This document shows positions 1,344 to 15,273 of a stretch of 64,000 nt of DNA, piece after piece. Below the pieces are notes generated by a model that was not told the origin of the DNA, made no database searches, and saw nothing but the letters and a program-made list of their open reading frames with translations. Position 1 is the first letter of the stretch. The number at the start of each line of letters is the position of its first letter. The DNA comes from a virus. The stretch covers positions 1-64,000 of the IMG/VR virus record IMGVR_UViG_3300006028_000002; one strand, given 5' to 3'. The translations under genes and the position numbers were made by a program.

Positions 1344-1350
1344 CTATCCC
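1344..1350 (-). promoter_or_regulatory. Start-associated element GGGATAG overlapping the replicase stop
   Basis: Minus-strand AAGGGATAGCG before ATG at 1338. Its TAG is also the stop codon of the replicase gene. Confidence 0.45.
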
Positions 1351-4300
1351 TTCGACAACTCATGGTCATTACTCAACCATCGATTACTCGGAACTTTCCA
1401 TTTCGGTTCAGCCTTAATCTTCACGCCGTACAACTCACCCGACATGCACTCTATCAAAGTGTTCATCGCCTCTGGTGCCTCAGCGGCCGGCACATTCGCT
1501 AAGATTTCATCATGAACAGGAACTAGAATACCTCCACGCCGGCCCCACTTAGTGTCGTAACGCCATCGTAAGAGGCCGTCTACCAGGGTCTCTCTGGCGG
1601 TTCCCTGTACCAGATAGTTGACGATTTTGTGCGGGAATTCGCGGGGTAGCCGCAGCACCCGACCCGAGTACAGGGTGATCGAATCCATGCCGTCTTTCAC
1701 CCGATCACGCATCTGATAACCCCAGCGCTTGACACCCGGGGCCAGCTCATCGAGCGCGTCCACCATGCGTTGGGCCTCGGCCTCGCTGCATCCCACCGTG
1801 TTGGCAATGCGCCAGATGCCCGCGCCATAGAGTTTCGCGAACACCCCGTTTTTCACGTATCCGTACTGGCGGGTGGTGTGATCCGGTCCATACACCTGGA
1901 CAGCAATGATCTTATGCAGTTTGCGGCCGGAGGCGACCAGATCCAAAAGCACCTGGTCCTGGGACAGCGCGGCCAGCACCGCCACCTCGATACCAAACAA
2001 GTCGGCATCGATGAATAGCTCCCCCGGATCGGCGATAAAGCATTCCCGAATACCGCCATGGCTCGGGATGTTCTGTAAGTTTTCATGAACACAGGACATT
2101 CTGCCAGTGTCGGCTTGCAATGTGTACACGGTAGACCGCATTCGCCCGTCCCCGTGCGTGCACAACAAATGATAAGGCCCCAGATAAGCGGTCAACAATC
2201 GATTGTGTTTGCGGAAATCCAGCACCGTATCGATCACGGGTGCCAGCGCATCGGTGCGCGGTAGCCGGGCCAGCACGTCGGCGGCCACACTCGGCTTGCC
2301 GGATTTTTCGCCGAGCGGCAGCTGGCCGGGGTGCGGGCCCACCGTGACCCCGCGGGCCAGCAGGGCTGCGGCGATCTGGTCGTTTGAGCCAGGGTTGTCG
2401 ATGCCCAGACCGGTCAGTGCCCGCCGGGCGGCGTCGCGGGCCGGGGTGTGCTCGGCGATTTTGGCCTCGATGTGCTCGCGATCCAGGCGCAGCCCGAGGA
2501 AGGAAACCGCGCCCACTGCCGCCTGTACGGCCCTCTCGCGGTCGTAGACGCCCTGGGCAGGCATGGGGAGGGTCTCGCCTAGGGCAGCGCAGTCCAGGAC
2601 GTCTGAGACCGCGTAGTCGGCCTGTGTGCGGCATCGAGGGTTGACCTGTGCCCAGCCGGAGCGTTCCCAGGCCACCCAGCCGCCGGTCTCCTCGATGCCG
2701 GAGTTTCTGACCTTGGTGTCGGTGGTCCAGCCGGCCTTGCGGAACAGCTGGGCGCGCCGGGCCTCGGCACCCGGGCTGACCGGATCGCTCAAATGCAGCT
2801 CGGACTGTGGCTTGAGCCCGGCATCCGAGCTCAAGGTGCCCACCGGGTTGTGCAGCTGAGCTTTGATCACCACATCGTGCGCACGAGCCCAGCCGTCCCG
2901 GTAATCGATCATCCCCAGCGCAGCCAGGTGCGAGATCTCCACCGCGGCTGAGTACGCCTCCAGCTCGCGCGCTTGGGCCAGCAACACCACACAGGTGGCG
3001 AACTGAACCGGATCGGCCACGTCGAACACCACGGCGTCATCCCGGTTGCCCAGCTGCACGGTGCGCACCGCGTGATCCGGGTGACCGATCGGATAGCCGG
3101 TGGATTCGATGTCCACGGTGAGCCGGCCAGGTGCAACCCGGTTGGTCATCGCTGCGCGCACGATCTGCCCGGCCACCTCGATCGAGACGCTGTGCGTGGC
3201 ACCGTGGCGCGTCTTGTGCGCGGGCAGCTCCAGAAGATCACCGCCCAGCTCGGCGATGGTGGCCGTTTTCGCGAGGGCCGAACGGATCCCGCGCAGTCGT
3301 TTGTCGATTTCCTTGACCGTGGCGACCAGTTGATCTTTCGCGTAGGCGTAGATGGCGTGCAGCGGATCCTCCGGCGGCGTTTTCTTGATCAGCTTGGTGA
3401 GTTGGTTGCGCTGATCCCGTGCCTGCGCGAGCTGGGCTGCTGTTTCCGCCTCCTGTACCTCTAATGGAGTATCCGTAACAGTGTTTTTATTGCTCGGTGC
3501 CGGCATGATCGCCGAGTCGTACGCGGCACCGCCCTCTTTTGCCTGCTCAAGTGGGGTAGTAAGATCATCGGTGCCGTGTTCCGGGTTTGCTTCCGGTTTA
3601 CGCCCTATAGCGCTTATACGATCTTGATGGGTAGTAAGATCATTATCCCCTATAAGGGTTATAAGGGGTGAGTAACCCGGCACACCCGGCACAATATCAA
3701 ATACACTACTAATAATAGCAGGTCCCGATACATCTTGATCTTGTGCCGGGTTTGCGTTCCGGGTTGTTCCGGTGCCGGGTTGGTTTTCGCTCGAACCTGG
3801 CACCGATATATCGTGACCGTTACTCAAATTGATCGTTATTAGGGTACCCTCATCTACTGTTTGCGGTGTCGCAACAGTTGCGCCCTGAGCTAGTGGATCA
3901 ATTTGGATCATGCTCGACGTCTGTTCGGGTGACGCTGGTGCACAATCCGTGCTCGTTTCCTGGTATTCGATACCCAACGCCGCATTTGCGTGGTCATCCG
4001 TGGAGCCGCTCTGGTTTTGCGGAGCGACATTCCCCGTAGCTGAACGACCATCCGCATCTGCGGAACCCTGTCGATCTTCCGTGGTGACCAGTGGGGGCAT
4101 GTCGGGCTGCTGCGCCGGGTTGGCCGGTCGGTATGGCGGGGGCACCGGGGGCCCGTAGTGGGTGGCACGCTTGCGCAGCGGTCGGACGCGCCCGTGCTCG
4201 CGGGTTTTGCTCTGCGGGTAGCCCAGGTCGGTAAGCCGGCGACCAAACAGGGTGGATGTCATGACCGGGGCCCGTGGTTCGATCCGGCGAAACCATTCCA

Positions 4301-6638
4301 CGAACCACTGGCGCAGCGTGGTGGCGTTGGTGCCCTGCTCGCAGCGCTCCATCTCGGCCTCGATCCACTGGCGTACCGGGTCTTCCTCGGCTGCGATGTC
4401 CTCGGCCCGCCAGCGGATCGGCTCGGGCGCCCGGTACTGCGCGGCGGTATCCGGCTCGGCCAGCCATTCGGCGCTGTAGTGCATGAGCTTGGCCAGCACG
4501 CCCGGGGCCTCGGCATGCCAGACGGCAGGGGTGATCACGCGCCGGGTGCGGGCCACCTCGGTCATGTCGCCTTCGCACGGAATCAGCCGCACCCGGCGGC
4601 GCAGCGCCGGATCCTGAAAGTTGGGGGACTCTTCCTCATTGCAGGTGAGCACCAGGGTGTGGGTGGGCTCGAAGGTTACCGGGTTGCCCCGCATCGGGTT
4701 GCCGGTGAGCGCCGCGCCCCCGGTGAGCTGTTTGAGCCGCGCGGTGGCTAGCTCGCCGCGTCGCGGGGCCTCATCGATGAACGCCAGCCGGATGCCTTTG
4801 AGCGCGAACACGATGGAGGCATGTGCGTTGTCGGCGGAGACCAGTAGCCGGGGGTCGGCCGCCATGCCGTAGGTGCCGAGCAGCGACATGATCAGGTTGA
4901 TGATCGAGGTCTTACCAGCCCCAGTAGGCCCGATGAGTAGCGGCAGCACCGCATCCGCATAGCCGGTCAAGGCCACCGAGAGCACCCGCAGCGCCCACTC
5001 CCGGATGGCGGGGTCTGGCCAGATGGCCGCGGTGTAGGCGTCCCAGTGCGGCGTAGGTGCCCGGGTACCGGCACCGGAGGGTGCGACCCCGGCGGTATGC
5101 AGGTGCGGGGTGTCGGAGGGCACCAGGGCCATCGCCGGGCGTTCCCGGGACCGACGCAGATCCCAGGCCAGCTGGCCAGCCCACAGTATCTCCGGGTCGG
5201 CGTCCAGCTCGGCGGTGGTGGTGGTGGCGGGGTGTCCATCGGTGCGGACCATGGCCCTCATCTTCTGTGCGATGCGGGAGGATTTACCGGCCTCCCCGAA
5301 GGCGGATTTGCGCTTGGCGCGGTTCTTGGACTCGTCACTCTCGGAGTCGGGATCACCATCGGGCATCAGCTCGTAGAGCTCGGTGATCGCCCAGTCGGTC
5401 AGGTCGCCGGGGCTGATCCGCCAGTTGTGCGCGCCCCGCACCAGCCAGGCGCCGGTATCGGAGAGGTAGCGCATCACCGGGCCCATCCGCACCAGCGCGG
5501 CAGCGGCCAGCTTGTGATCGATGAGTCCGCGCGGGTCGAAAGCCTCGGTGCCGATCAGTGCCCGACGTGACCAGAGCGTGGGGGCAGCCGGAGCGAGGAT
5601 CTCCTCACCGGGGGCCTCGGTGGCGTCATCCGGGCCGCTGGCCGCCGGTCGGGGGGCTGCGACCACCTGCATCATCAGGCACGGGTCGTAGTGCGCACGG
5701 GCGGTTAGACCGGTGCCGGTGAGCTCCGAGAGGGCCTTGCGCGCGGCGGACAGGGCCATCGCGTCGAACTCGTGCCCGCGGTTTTCCCCGGCGGTGAGGG
5801 TTTCCCACTGCTCGCGCAACGCGGCCAGTGCCGGGCCGGTGCCGGTGTGCCCGAACGCGCCGGCCCGGACCAGGGCGTACACCCGCCGGGTGGTGGTGTC
5901 GTGGCGCGAGCCGGCGGCAGCGGCCTCCATGTCCTCGGTGGCGGTGAGCCGGATATTGGTGATGTCGGCGCACTCGGGCCGGTCATCGGCCAGTAGTTGG
6001 GTGAGCAGCACCGCACCCTCGGCAACCGGCGCGGCCAGCGCACTGGGACGGGTGGCACCCTCGGCCAGGGCCACCACCCACGCCACTGGTAGCTCGGGCA
6101 GATCCCCCGGCGTCGGGATGCGCTCGGCGGGCGAGCCATCGGGGCCATACCAGCGATAGGGCGCGCCCACCTCATGATGGATTGACGGTGCCACGACGCA
6201 GTAACGATGGTGGCGTTGGAGGATCTCGATGGCGGACTCGGGCCCCAGGTTGGCCGCGTAGCGCCCCGGTGGCACCCGGTAGAACAACGTGCGCGACGGG
6301 CCGGGCGCATCCTCGGTGCCACGTGCGGTGGATGCCCAGGTGGACGGGAGTGATCCCAGCCGGGCCTCCCACTCGGCGAGCACCTCTGCGCCGCGTTTGT
6401 CGACGGAGCCTTTCTGGTAGTGATCGATATCGATTCCGATGACGTTAGCGGGCATGCGCAGCGCAATTGAGTGATAGGCCCTGGTGCGTTCCCATTCTTG
6501 GAGAATGGCTAAGTCAGTGTTTGATCCGTTGTCCCCTGTGTAGCCAGCTGGAGGTGGTGTTTTGGTTTGGGCAGGAACAGGCAGTATGCAATTCCATCCA
6601 GCATCGTAGTATTGGCGCCATGCTGTGCTGAACACCAT
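1344..6638 (-). CDS. Primase/polymerase - SF3 helicase - family A DNA polymerase fusion replicase
   Basis: A single 1764-residue protein with three replication enzymes in order. Residues ~1-210 match the bifunctional primase/polymerase (archaeo-eukaryotic primase-like) domain, with GIDIDHY (~68) and a CVVAPSIHH segment. Residues ~490-760 are a D5/P4-type SF3 helicase: Walker A GPTGAGKTS (~568), Walker B AFIDEAP (~618), LVLTCNEE and ALRRRVRLIP. A poorly conserved linker (~840-1120) of lower GC and low complexity follows. Residues ~1170-1764 are a family A polymerase with 3'-5' exonuclease (VDIESTG, YAVSD), TGRMSCVHENLQNIP, motif A ADLFGIEVAVLA, motif B KNGVFAKLYG and motif C VPVHDEI. It should prime, unwind and copy DNA. 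Phages usually encode these on two or three genes. Confidence 0.93.
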   Translation of the reverse strand: MVFSTAWRQYYDAGWNCILPVPAQTKTPPPAGYTGDNGSNTDLAILQEWERTRAYHSIALRMPANVIGIDIDHYQKGSVDKRGAEVLAEWEARLGSLPSTWASTARGTEDAPGPSRTLFYRVPPGRYAANLGPESAIEILQRHHRYCVVAPSIHHEVGAPYRWYGPDGSPAERIPTPGDLPELPVAWVVALAEGATRPSALAAPVAEGAVLLTQLLADDRPECADITNIRLTATEDMEAAAAGSRHDTTTRRVYALVRAGAFGHTGTGPALAALREQWETLTAGENRGHEFDAMALSAARKALSELTGTGLTARAHYDPCLMMQVVAAPRPAASGPDDATEAPGEEILAPAAPTLWSRRALIGTEAFDPRGLIDHKLAAAALVRMGPVMRYLSDTGAWLVRGAHNWRISPGDLTDWAITELYELMPDGDPDSESDESKNRAKRKSAFGEAGKSSRIAQKMRAMVRTDGHPATTTTAELDADPEILWAGQLAWDLRRSRERPAMALVPSDTPHLHTAGVAPSGAGTRAPTPHWDAYTAAIWPDPAIREWALRVLSVALTGYADAVLPLLIGPTGAGKTSIINLIMSLLGTYGMAADPRLLVSADNAHASIVFALKGIRLAFIDEAPRRGELATARLKQLTGGAALTGNPMRGNPVTFEPTHTLVLTCNEEESPNFQDPALRRRVRLIPCEGDMTEVARTRRVITPAVWHAEAPGVLAKLMHYSAEWLAEPDTAAQYRAPEPIRWRAEDIAAEEDPVRQWIEAEMERCEQGTNATTLRQWFVEWFRRIEPRAPVMTSTLFGRRLTDLGYPQSKTREHGRVRPLRKRATHYGPPVPPPYRPANPAQQPDMPPLVTTEDRQGSADADGRSATGNVAPQNQSGSTDDHANAALGIEYQETSTDCAPASPEQTSSMIQIDPLAQGATVATPQTVDEGTLITINLSNGHDISVPGSSENQPGTGTTRNANPAQDQDVSGPAIISSVFDIVPGVPGYSPLITLIGDNDLTTHQDRISAIGRKPEANPEHGTDDLTTPLEQAKEGGAAYDSAIMPAPSNKNTVTDTPLEVQEAETAAQLAQARDQRNQLTKLIKKTPPEDPLHAIYAYAKDQLVATVKEIDKRLRGIRSALAKTATIAELGGDLLELPAHKTRHGATHSVSIEVAGQIVRAAMTNRVAPGRLTVDIESTGYPIGHPDHAVRTVQLGNRDDAVVFDVADPVQFATCVVLLAQARELEAYSAAVEISHLAALGMIDYRDGWARAHDVVIKAQLHNPVGTLSSDAGLKPQSELHLSDPVSPGAEARRAQLFRKAGWTTDTKVRNSGIEETGGWVAWERSGWAQVNPRCRTQADYAVSDVLDCAALGETLPMPAQGVYDRERAVQAAVGAVSFLGLRLDREHIEAKIAEHTPARDAARRALTGLGIDNPGSNDQIAAALLARGVTVGPHPGQLPLGEKSGKPSVAADVLARLPRTDALAPVIDTVLDFRKHNRLLTAYLGPYHLLCTHGDGRMRSTVYTLQADTGRMSCVHENLQNIPSHGGIRECFIADPGELFIDADLFGIEVAVLAALSQDQVLLDLVASGRKLHKIIAVQVYGPDHTTRQYGYVKNGVFAKLYGAGIWRIANTVGCSEAEAQRMVDALDELAPGVKRWGYQMRDRVKDGMDSITLYSGRVLRLPREFPHKIVNYLVQGTARETLVDGLLRWRYDTKWGRRGGILVPVHDEILANVPAAEAPEAMNTLIECMSGELYGVKIKAEPKWKVPSNRWLSNDHELSKG

Positions 6639-6639
6639 T

Positions 6640-7128
6640 TCATTTCACCACCCTGTACGTATTCAGCACGGCAAATTCACCCCATGCGGCTAGTGCTGCT
6701 ATGTTGTAAGCTTGCGCTGCATCCCAGGGATTGTCAAAGTAACCAAGGCTCTTATGAGTGTAGTTTACAGTTATCTGTGCTTGCCACTTATTGCGCGATG
6801 GAATCCAGGTTATGCCTTTATAGGGAGATTTGTTACCTCGTTTTTGGCTGTTTGCCTCATTGGTTGATTTAGTGGCTATACGTAAGTTCAACCTTATGTT
6901 GTTCAGGCCGTTATTGTCTCTATGGTCAATCAGTTGGTGCGGTTGAGCATTCATAATTTGCCTATGCAGATATACGAAACGCCGTGGACCGCCCTCTATA
7001 ATACGAGTATAACGAGCTACGTATAGCTTTCCATTTGGTTTGACTACACGCCATTTGTGCGGTGTTATAAGTGGCCAGTCGTCATCGTCAAATACTGTGA
7101 CGTGTCCGGAGGGTAGTAATAGCTGCAT
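6640..7128 (-). CDS. HNH endonuclease with AP2 domain
   Basis: 162 residues. The N-terminus holds an HNH core (VYLHRQIMN, then LIDHRDNNGLNNIRLNLRI) and the C-terminus an AP2-type DNA-binding domain (YKGITWIPSRNKWQAQI, then GYFDNPWDAAQAYN). This is the classic freestanding homing endonuclease layout of phages. I chose the ATG at 7128 because it overlaps the preceding stop (TGATG) and the HNH-associated segment begins there. It lies exactly between the GIY-YIG gene and the replicase start and looks AT-richer than both, so it is probably an inserted selfish gene. Confidence 0.85.
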   Translation of the reverse strand: MQLLLPSGHVTVFDDDDWPLITPHKWRVVKPNGKLYVARYTRIIEGGPRRFVYLHRQIMNAQPHQLIDHRDNNGLNNIRLNLRIATKSTNEANSQKRGNKSPYKGITWIPSRNKWQAQITVNYTHKSLGYFDNPWDAAQAYNIAALAAWGEFAVLNTYRVVK

Positions 7129-7475
7129 CAGCCCACCTGCTCTAATTGTTGCCAGTCGATGCCCGCACCAGTCCCTAGGCAGATGGGGCACAGCCGAGCC
7201 CGGCTGCCGCGGTTTTTGAGCTTGCGCTCGGTGCGACGATCCACGCCCGCCCACACCCGGGCCAGCTGCCACGTGCTGCCGGCGGCCATGGCGACTCGCA
7301 CCAGATTGGCGCAATCCCCGTTGCCGCGAGCATGCGCGGCCAGCCGGGTCGCCAGATCCTCGCTCCATCCGAGGTAATGCGAAGCCCACTGCAATTTGCG
7401 CCCAGGTAATTGCACAGCCACGTAGGGCTTATCAAAATGCAGGAGATATACTGTACCTATGACGTTGGTTCGCAC
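7128..7475 (-). CDS. GIY-YIG-like nuclease
   Basis: About 115 residues. The pattern GTVYLLHF, then ASHYLGWSEDLATRLAAH, then RTERKLKNRG and LCPIC fits the GIY-YIG nuclease fold in a form often seen in actinophages. A GTG at 7475 lies seven bases after a GGGGTAGGT element and is preferred; an alternative GTG at 7484 lies inside that element. The short length suggests only a catalytic core with a C-terminal zinc ribbon (CPICLG). Its role is probably DNA processing in the recombination operon. Substrate unknown. Confidence 0.7.
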   Translation of the reverse strand: MRTNVIGTVYLLHFDKPYVAVQLPGRKLQWASHYLGWSEDLATRLAAHARGNGDCANLVRVAMAAGSTWQLARVWAGVDRRTERKLKNRGSRARLCPICLGTGAGIDWQQLEQVG

Positions 7476-13433: not shown

Positions 13434-14732
13434 TTACTGCCCGGCGTACTGCGGCGAGGACGGATCCAGGTCAGCCGGAATAGGTACGCCGGTCTGCTGA
13501 CTCACCACCGGCCGTACCGGAGCGGCCATCGCAAGCCATTGCTCATAGGTGATGGTGGCGGGTGCAGTCGGAGCTGGAGCCGGAGCTGGTGTTGCCGCAG
13601 CTGGAGCTGGAGCCGGAGCAGCTGGTGCCGGTGTTGGCGCAGGGGTTGCCGGCGGGGGAATCGTTGGTGCCGGTGCCGGCGCGGGCATCGTGGCCGCCGG
13701 TAGCCCAGCATCCGCGGTGACCACTGCTGCGGCGGCTTGCTGAACCTGCTGAGCAGCTGGAGCGGGGACAGGAGGTGCAGCCGGAGCGGGGACAGGAGGT
13801 GCAGCCGCAGGGGCCGGGAGGGGGGGCGCTGCGGCCGGTTGCGCTGCCGCCGGGGTAACGGTGGGGGCAGCGCCGTTGCTGGCGCCCATGGCCGCCTGAA
13901 GCTGTGCCTGGTACGCCGCGAGGGCATTGGCGTACTCGATATACGCCTGCGGTGTTGCTCCGGCGGCCGGCTGCTCCGGCGGTGCACCAATCTCTGCCAG
14001 AGCCGTGTGTGCGGCCTCGATCCCGGCGCGCCGCTGGATGGTGTAGGGATCATCGGGACAGCGATACACCACGTCATAGATAAACCGGGTGAAACTACCT
14101 TTTGGTGAGCTGCCTTTCTGTTCCTCAACTTTGGTCATCTTGATGTAGGCGCCCTCTTGTGGAACGTACCCGACATGCTCAACGCCATCCTCCACCGTCG
14201 TGGTCAAGGGAGCGCCTGCGTAGGCCATGGCAGCGGAGAGCTTGTCTCGGGAATCCCCCACTTTGAAGACTGCGACGCCGTGGCCGTCCATGTGGTTACC
14301 GCCGGGCATCATCAGCATAGGCACGAGCAACTGGGCCTTATACTGCCCATTCTGCATAACGGGATTACCCTGTTTGTCGGTCTGGGCTTGAGAATCCTCC
14401 CTCCGGATAGCACGGGCCACAATACCCTCGTACCAGGTGCCCACCGGCATTTCATTGAACTTCCAGAATTTGCCCTCACCGCCAGTGGAGGCTTTCTGTG
14501 TGAGGTACTGACTCAAGGGGACGTAGACGGTGGGTGGCCGCTCCTGTTTTTGCTCGCCGGCCTGACCATTGGTGCCGGGCGCCGGGAGTGGCGGGACCGC
14601 GGGTGCGGCGGCTGCCGGTACCGGATCCCATTGCCCCGTACCGACATTAAACGTGAACCACTGCTCACCGTTCCATGCGGCGTCTGCGGGGACGTGTGCC
14701 GGTCGGGCCGGCTGGGTTGCTGTCGTAGTCAT
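13434..14732 (-). CDS. Putative DNA-binding protein with long Pro/Ala tail
   Basis: 432 residues. Residues ~60-270 are globular, with repeated strands (GKFWKFNEMPVGTWYEGIV, YKAQLLVPMLMMPGG, GAYIKMTKVEEQKG) that could form an OB-like fold. Residues ~275-395 are almost only Ala and Pro in short repeats. Domain order (fold plus flexible tail) and position beside helicase and nuclease genes suggest a single-stranded-DNA-binding protein. The tail tip (PADLDPSSPQYAGQ) is only weakly acidic, so this is inference. A GAGGGTAGGAAAGG element precedes ATG 14732. Confidence 0.45.
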   Translation of the reverse strand: MTTTATQPARPAHVPADAAWNGEQWFTFNVGTGQWDPVPAAAAPAVPPLPAPGTNGQAGEQKQERPPTVYVPLSQYLTQKASTGGEGKFWKFNEMPVGTWYEGIVARAIRREDSQAQTDKQGNPVMQNGQYKAQLLVPMLMMPGGNHMDGHGVAVFKVGDSRDKLSAAMAYAGAPLTTTVEDGVEHVGYVPQEGAYIKMTKVEEQKGSSPKGSFTRFIYDVVYRCPDDPYTIQRRAGIEAAHTALAEIGAPPEQPAAGATPQAYIEYANALAAYQAQLQAAMGASNGAAPTVTPAAAQPAAAPPLPAPAAAPPVPAPAAPPVPAPAAQQVQQAAAAVVTADAGLPAATMPAPAPAPTIPPPATPAPTPAPAAPAPAPAAATPAPAPAPTAPATITYEQWLAMAAPVRPVVSQQTGVPIPADLDPSSPQYAGQ

Positions 14733-14784: not shown

Positions 14785-15273
14785 TCATCCGCTAGGGATG
14801 TCATTAACCCGCGCAAACTCGCCCCACTGCTCTAAGGCGGCTTTGTTATAAGCCCGGGCTGCATCGTCTTTATTAGTGAATAGTCCTAATGATCTGCGGC
14901 CACCTTTGCCATCACCGACACGTGCCCGCCATTTACCATAGAGGCAATAAACTCCCTTGTACCCGGAAGTATTGTTGCGGTGAATCCTTTTATTTCCAAG
15001 ATTCTGAGAGTCAGTGCAGAGACGTAGGTTAGCTCGTCTGTTGTTTAGCTCATCTCTATCTTTATGGTCAATATCCAAGTTACGCGGTGGATTGAGCAGG
15101 AATCGGTGTAAGTAAACCTCTTTACCATTTATCTTTGCTCGTGCGTATTTTAAGTGTTGACCTGTTCTAGGAACAAATAGGTACCAGCCATATTTAGCGA
15201 TCAAGGGATAATCGGCTGCATCCACTAACGTTACGTCTCCGCTACTGAGCACGATTTCCCGATGATCAGTCAT
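14785..15273 (-). CDS. HNH endonuclease with AP2 domain
   Basis: 162 residues, the same length and plan as the copy at 6640-7128. It has LHRFLLNPPRNLDIDHKD and DELNNRRANLRLCT (HNH), then YKGVYCLYGKWRARV and NKDDAARAYNKAA (AP2). The two differ through most of their length, so they are separate insertions rather than a recent duplication. It lies between the DNA-binding candidate and the RecB-like nuclease and appears AT-rich for the region. Probably a freestanding homing endonuclease. Confidence 0.85.
   Translation of the reverse strand: MTDHREIVLSSGDVTLVDAADYPLIAKYGWYLFVPRTGQHLKYARAKINGKEVYLHRFLLNPPRNLDIDHKDRDELNNRRANLRLCTDSQNLGNKRIHRNNTSGYKGVYCLYGKWRARVGDGKGGRRSLGLFTNKDDAARAYNKAALEQWGEFARVNDIPSG

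Follow-up and report, generated by a model that had tools for sequence, protein, structure and literature searches.

Whether most of the apparatus that copies a phage genome can be carried on one polypeptide is the question raised by a gene of IMG/VR virus record IMGVR_UViG_3300006028_000002, an 88-kb record of which 64 kb make up the 64,000-nucleotide stretch referred to here as the window. The gene occupies positions 1344..6638 on the minus strand, as do all of the parts located below, and forms an uninterrupted open reading frame (ORF) with an ATG start, whose 1764 codons had been delimited exactly in the initial annotation, with the strand left unstated. Based on the ORF, the Pfam and PHROGs matches, and the fused relatives, the 1764-amino-acid (aa) product is read as a PrimPol, an SF3 helicase, a linker, a 3'-5' exonuclease, and a family A DNA polymerase, in this order. 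The gene is likely to be the phage's own self-sufficient, all-in-one DNA replicase, with an activity that is predicted from its sequence and that may include proofreading. Replisomes are normally made up of many proteins joined by weak contacts, for which the clade described here substitutes a covalent tether, and a near-complete copying machine on one chain is now open to laboratory testing.

The modules of the chain

Domain searches with two independent libraries, Pfam and PHROGs, found all three of the enzymes that had been read from the frame, rather than two of them, and an exonuclease in addition, which brings the modules to four, given that this Pol I-type domain sits before the polymerase. 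Pfam placed Prim-Pol (PF09250) at residues 9-172 (4.2e-20; 73.2 bits, against a curated cut-off of 22.8), the DUF5906/SF3 core at 568-676 (5e-7), and DNA_pol_A at 1415-1742 (1.2e-42), together with a weak D5_N match, below the cut-off, at 386-501. In PHROGs, a phage primase was matched over aa 2-815 (2e-102) and a phage DNA polymerase over aa 1169-1750 (2e-70). By these matches and the modelled folds, a PrimPol, an SF3 helicase, a Pol I-like exonuclease fold, and an entire family A polymerase are borne by one chain. A plain-pattern motif scan with P0001 alone gave no match, and alignments were required to place the catalytic residues.

The polymerase domain (aa 1415-1742; 1413..2396), recognised by Pfam, its invariant residues, and its Pol I fold, retains D1546 of motif A, K1596 of motif B, and D1710/E1711 of motif C in 48/48 polymerases, with F1600, the position numbered 762 in E. 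coli Pol I, and Y1604 nearly invariant over the same 48, and motif C reading H1709-D1710-E1711. A structure model of aa 1102-1764, built from 48 sequences, reached a predicted local distance difference test score (pLDDT) of 93 and a predicted template modelling score (pTM) of 0.90, and returned 211 PDB matches at E <= 0.001, to Pol I enzymes that include those of phage G20c and Bst. Ahead of the polymerase lies the 3'-5' exonuclease domain (aa ~1171-1400; 2439..3128), modelled by AlphaFold at pLDDT 93, in which alignment to phage Pol I shows D1176, E1178, and Y1342/D1346 to be kept, and the second aspartate is replaced by E1234 in the window protein and its relative L010 only (D in 24/26 clade rows). 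Matches to DNA_pol_A_exo1 were found in relatives, and the module is identified as a DEDD-type fold of putative activity. It is preceded by a helical segment (aa 1111-1170; 3129..3308), which AlphaFold models as helix at high pLDDT.

In the other half, the PrimPol domain (an archaeo-eukaryotic primase, AEP; aa 9-172; 6123..6614) was located through the Pfam Prim-Pol match, its conserved acids, and the fold match of the N-half to AsfvPrimPol. Its AEP motif I, D70-I-D72 (6423..6431), has both acids in 20/20 aligned fused-clade sequences, and the motif III acid, E138, is E in 12/20 and D in 8/20 of these rows. The SF3/D5 helicase module (aa ~431-830; 4149..5348) is defined by DUF5906, by a profile match to D5-type structures (C962R), and by invariants found in 20/20 rows, that is, G570, G575, and K576 of the Walker A sequence GPTGAGKT (aa 570-577; 4908..4931), D622/E623 of Walker B, N667 of the sensor/motif C, and R680/R682/R684. 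A sequence search of solved structures returned nothing for the PrimPol part at E <= 1, and only chance matches came from a search with the single sequence L122. When the N-half was modelled from 20 sequences (pLDDT 83, pTM 0.59), the best fold matches were full-length AsfvPrimPol chains (3e-19), which have been solved as hexamers and dodecamers, with MPXV E5 also recovered; the modelled monomer fold thus resembles those of the hexamer-forming AsfvPrimPol and MPXV E5.

The two halves meet in a low-complexity linker, rich in Ala, Thr, Pro, Ser, and Gln (aa 831-1110; 3309..4148), which is marked out by a drop in identity, a stop-free frame, low GC (guanine plus cytosine), and a swap boundary seen in two relatives (L014/L015). 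It is AT-richer, as had been noted, with a GC of 0.49-0.57 versus ~0.70, and 0.44-0.49 versus ~0.85 at third codon positions (GC3), and the GC of the linker was also below that of its own gene in 37/37 relatives measured. The short repeats of which it was said to be full are, on the other hand, negligible, amounting to one 9-mer at 2.1 copies and a few pairs of 12-25 nt. It is the fastest-evolving part of the protein, at 29% aa identity to L010 versus 58-71% in the catalytic parts, and the frame is nonetheless kept: none of 2000 dinucleotide shuffles of the linker was stop-free (mean, 9.5 stops), and its five other frames hold 6-17 stops each. In relatives, linker lengths range from 98 to 352 residues (median 154, n = 37). 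The residue composition suggests that the linker is probably disordered, and it would serve as both fusion junction and swap point, allowing the two halves to function and evolve semi-independently. A separate polymerase made from an internal start was rejected: no such start with a Shine-Dalgarno sequence was present near the polymerase in 34/37 relatives, and the window offers none except a weak GTG with GAGG at aa 1160.

Distribution and history of the fusion

The interpretation given in the initial annotation is supported on the whole, with the correction that the fusion is old and shared by a lineage rather than a junction specific to this genome. A polymerase alignment search of IMG/VR returned L010 at 69% and others at 38-47%, which are single ORFs of 1562-1839 aa unless truncated, with the exception of L016. 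A wider, profile-annotated scan that took in IMG/VR and GTDB genomes divided the PolA relatives by identity: from ~39% upwards they were fused, with few exceptions, and from ~31% downwards they were split. When the primase-helicase half served as the query, ~30 loci aligned with most of it at an identity of at least 41% (or were truncated by the contig). Each of these is a single ORF with PolA, apart from L212 and L219, both of which are cut by a contig end, so that every complete PrimPol-SF3 relative at this level is fused; where the identity was 39% or less and the match was limited to the PrimPol part, the relatives are proteins of ~760-875 aa without PolA. In total, SF3 and PolA-type sequence were joined in one ORF at 63 loci, representing 42 distinct proteins, 38 of which also carry a primase profile, and in two of which (L016 and L142) only the exonuclease part is fused. 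The profiles behind these counts were built from some of the same loci, and Pfam agrees independently for those tested.

Four GTDB matches, on which the naming of hosts rests, come from Micromonospora sp. MW-13, M. zingiberis, Labedaea rhizosphaerae, and Nocardioides sp. Root190, with genes free of internal stops. SF3 and PolA identities are correlated (Mantel r 0.39; 1/2000 permutations as high), and plasmid matches span either the primase-helicase part alone or PolA alone. Judged from these sequences, the fusion is a conserved, lineage-wide feature of actinobacterial (pro)phages, inherited across the clade, and the design is common to dozens of related phages of soil actinobacteria. At two loci PolA is interrupted: L201:8234-13801 contains an intein that carries an HNH nuclease (matches to Hint, Intein_splicing, and HNH_3), and L139:5797-11811 (2004 aa) contains an insert.

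It had been supposed that a prim-pol/helicase and a separate family A polymerase are the usual split form, and the separate PolA was indeed found; its partner is of another kind, given that in known phages with a related PolA a primase/SF3 gene of the TOPRIM type is separated by 0-3 small genes from the gene for a DNA polymerase I of ~620 aa. Phages with the nearest PrimPol-SF3 have no adjacent PolA; three were examined, of which Tracker and P1201 have a DnaE-type polymerase instead.

A PolA tree of 61 rows places the fused rows, seven split rows, and one truncated row in a single clade (SH-aLRT, the Shimodaira-Hasegawa approximate likelihood-ratio test, 100), away from the split polymerases of the TOPRIM type. 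A single fusion with all of the split members outside it was rejected by the approximately unbiased (AU) test, with p 1e-50 against grouping the fused rows without the split ones, and, given this nesting, fission or repeated fusion must have occurred. The simplest account is a single early fusion that was later undone at least three times, although fusion may also have occurred repeatedly.

The split and exchanged members take several forms. At L119:4000-10788, a PolA of the fused clade is its own gene beside DnaB and DnaG, which suggests that the primase-helicase half was replaced by this bacterial-type pair, and in L136 and L137 a gene with PrimPol and an AAA_25/KaiC-type (SF4-like) ATPase is followed by a separate PolA. 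The replicase is split between exonuclease and polymerase at L016:1578-9302 and L142:4138-10191, the pieces in L016 being parted by unrelated genes. Other members have changed their front end and kept the fusion. For example, L014:5073-9794 and L015:4581-9761, from the same metagenome, have PolA halves that are 98% identical and unrelated front halves, with SF3 parts that are 19% identical and the jump in protein identity at the linker end, the mark of a recent cassette swap of the front half at the linker. A PrimPol, an SF4-type (AAA_25) helicase, and PolA share a single ORF at L125:5085-9419, and in L213 and L215 the same PrimPol-SF3 is fused to another PolA branch. A primase module is retained in the clade, though of several types, and the repeated re-splitting, together with the front-end swaps in the fused gene, provides a natural experiment on the contacts that a replisome needs.

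Proposed working and its alternatives

In the proposed mechanism, the SF3 part would assemble as a ring, probably a hexamer, and unwind the DNA, the PrimPol domains on the ring would lay primers, and the PolA domains, on flexible linkers of ~100-350 residues, would extend these primers, so that both strands are copied. In this arrangement no docking proteins would be required to keep priming, unwinding, and synthesis together, and any SSB (single-stranded DNA-binding protein), ligase, or clamp that is needed would be supplied by the host or by unrecognised genes. A broader version, in which the whole lineage has a self-contained replisome, a hexameric ring with six primases and six tethered polymerases that needs no other phage replication proteins, and in which the front end (PrimPol-SF3, another AEP-SF3, or PrimPol-SF4) is exchanged as a cassette at the disordered linker with the fusion kept, is put forward tentatively, as a possibility with somewhat less than an even chance.

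Several points weigh against a self-sufficient replicase. Exonuclease motif II reads S...E in place of N...D. The confidence of the N-half model is only moderate (pTM 0.59). Clade members L119 and L135-L138 have a separate PolA, which means that the fusion is not obligatory, and the chain might be processed proteolytically in the manner of Prex. The 88-kb record may be incomplete, a fragment of the genome, although the failure to detect any PolB, DnaE-type polymerase, DnaB, DnaG, or SSB in it counts in favour of this reading. Priming could be lost or altered, and the main reason to doubt it is that the histidine of AEP motif II (sxH) is absent: its position, placed by sequence alignment only, is F119 in the window protein and F/L in 16/20 fused-clade rows, with H in 4/20.

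It is on this histidine that the suggestion depends that the PrimPol serves as a DNA-binding or loading domain, with primers made by the host DnaG or RNA polymerase and the enzyme acting as a helicase-polymerase, which is also in keeping with L119, where a PolA of this kind accompanies DnaB and DnaG. Such a role is judged unlikely, as 20/20 sequences keep the DxD of motif I and an acid in motif III, the clade retains a primase module, and the record has no DnaG; with the histidine lacking, the N-terminal domain is filed as AEP-like, short of a proven primase. Processing of the chain, by which a precursor would be cut in the linker into PrimPol-SF3 and exonuclease-PolA proteins that act apart, would suit a linker that is fast-evolving, rich in Pro, Ser, Thr, and Gln, and tolerant of swaps, and it has precedents in the split clade members with a separate PolA and in Prex, which is processed (PMC7689252, PMC8113025). 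However, no cleavage site turned up, though no formal search for one was made, and the retention of the fusion in nearly all members, despite easy re-splitting, suggests that the tether matters, which makes this analogy with Prex quite improbable as an account of the window protein.

The merging of two neighbouring genes by an assembly or sequencing error might be suspected from the AT-rich junction and from the split arrangement common in distant relatives, and the initial annotation had allowed for such an error at the junction amid unfused close relatives. The close relatives are fused, the same fusion recurs in dozens of independent contigs and in the four named genomes, and the frame is kept across divergent linkers, so that an artefact has practically no chance of being correct; a pseudogene junction is likewise ruled out by the independent fused loci. 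A tethered, self-sufficient replicase is retained as the preferred reading, and such enzymes would be candidates for primer-free, helicase-assisted DNA amplification.

Known fusions and the genome setting

Prex of the apicoplast has a primase and a helicase of DnaG/T7-type families, and the window protein has a PrimPol and SF3 where Prex has a DnaG/TOPRIM primase and a T7-type SF4 helicase. In both, a single chain holds a primase, a helicase, an exonuclease, and a polymerase of family A; that of Prex is proteolytically processed and encoded by a nuclear gene of a parasite (PMC8113025, PMC7689252). In lactococcal phage 1706, helicase, AEP, exonuclease, and family B polymerase are combined in GP55, which was shown biochemically to synthesise DNA de novo, and the authors of that work describe four activities in one protein as unprecedented (PMC12205980, 2025); GP55 differs from the window protein, whose polymerase is of family A, in its family B polymerase, its helicase-AEP-PolB order, its length of 1317 aa, and its mostly human-associated bacterial hosts.

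A structural search of viral proteins also brought up Pas55 of the cultured Actinoplanes phage phiAsp2 (NC_005885 43304-47551; L240:8305-12552), a 1415-aa DUF3854-ATPase-PolA protein deposited as "putative DNA polymerase". Like the window protein, it combines a primase-like region, a Walker-type ATPase motif, and PolA within a single protein of a phage that infects an actinobacterium, and appears to be a previously unremarked fusion of this kind. Its primase-like region, however, is the TOPRIM-like DUF3854, which was not found in the window protein, rather than PrimPol, its PolA belongs to a different branch (~27-35% to most of the fused clade, 41-42% to L213/L215), and its relatives in Streptomyces phages are split genes.

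Other viral systems share smaller portions of the design. The 1606-aa PolA polyprotein of Pyrovirus (TOSV) joins a DUF927 helicase to exonuclease and PolA, fused in some members and split in others (PMC7689252), with no AEP primase reported; the window protein has no DUF927 match. The PrimPol-SF3 replicases of Gordonia phage Tracker, Corynebacterium phage P1201, and Mycobacterium phage Hawkeye are alike in N-half architecture, at 23-27% identity, but have no fused PolA, and Tracker and P1201 have a separate DnaE-type polymerase. In Sputnik and related elements, TV-Pol, a polymerase related to family A, is joined to a D5/SF3 helicase (PMC2579912), but TV-Pol occupies the N-terminal position, is minimal, and is predicted to carry out priming itself, with no separate AEP. 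Polinton-like viruses have PolA-SF3 and SF1-PolB fusions (PMC12721341). Given GP55, Prex, Pyrovirus, Pas55, and the Polinton-like viruses, all-in-one fusion has arisen more than once. No description of an AEP-SF3-PolA fusion was found in the open-access literature, which is not proof that none exists, and, as far as the searched literature goes, AEP-SF3-exonuclease-PolA is a new combination, which enlarges the small group of all-in-one replicases on record and is carried by prophages of culturable actinobacteria.

Outside the window, the same record encodes an ORF at ~36% to Rhodococcus phage terminases and another that, judged by eye, resembles a tyrosine integrase, and two further SF2-type helicases are present in the record. 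HNH/endonuclease VII-like genes lie on either side of the replicase gene (688-1338 and 6640-7389, minus; PHROGs) and are possible free-standing homing endonucleases, and another HNH gene lies at 14785-15273. Finally, the replication region encodes, at 13434-14732, minus, a protein of 432 aa that has a long tail rich in Ala and Pro, lacks a PHROG match, and might, as a guess, be an SSB-like or annealing protein.
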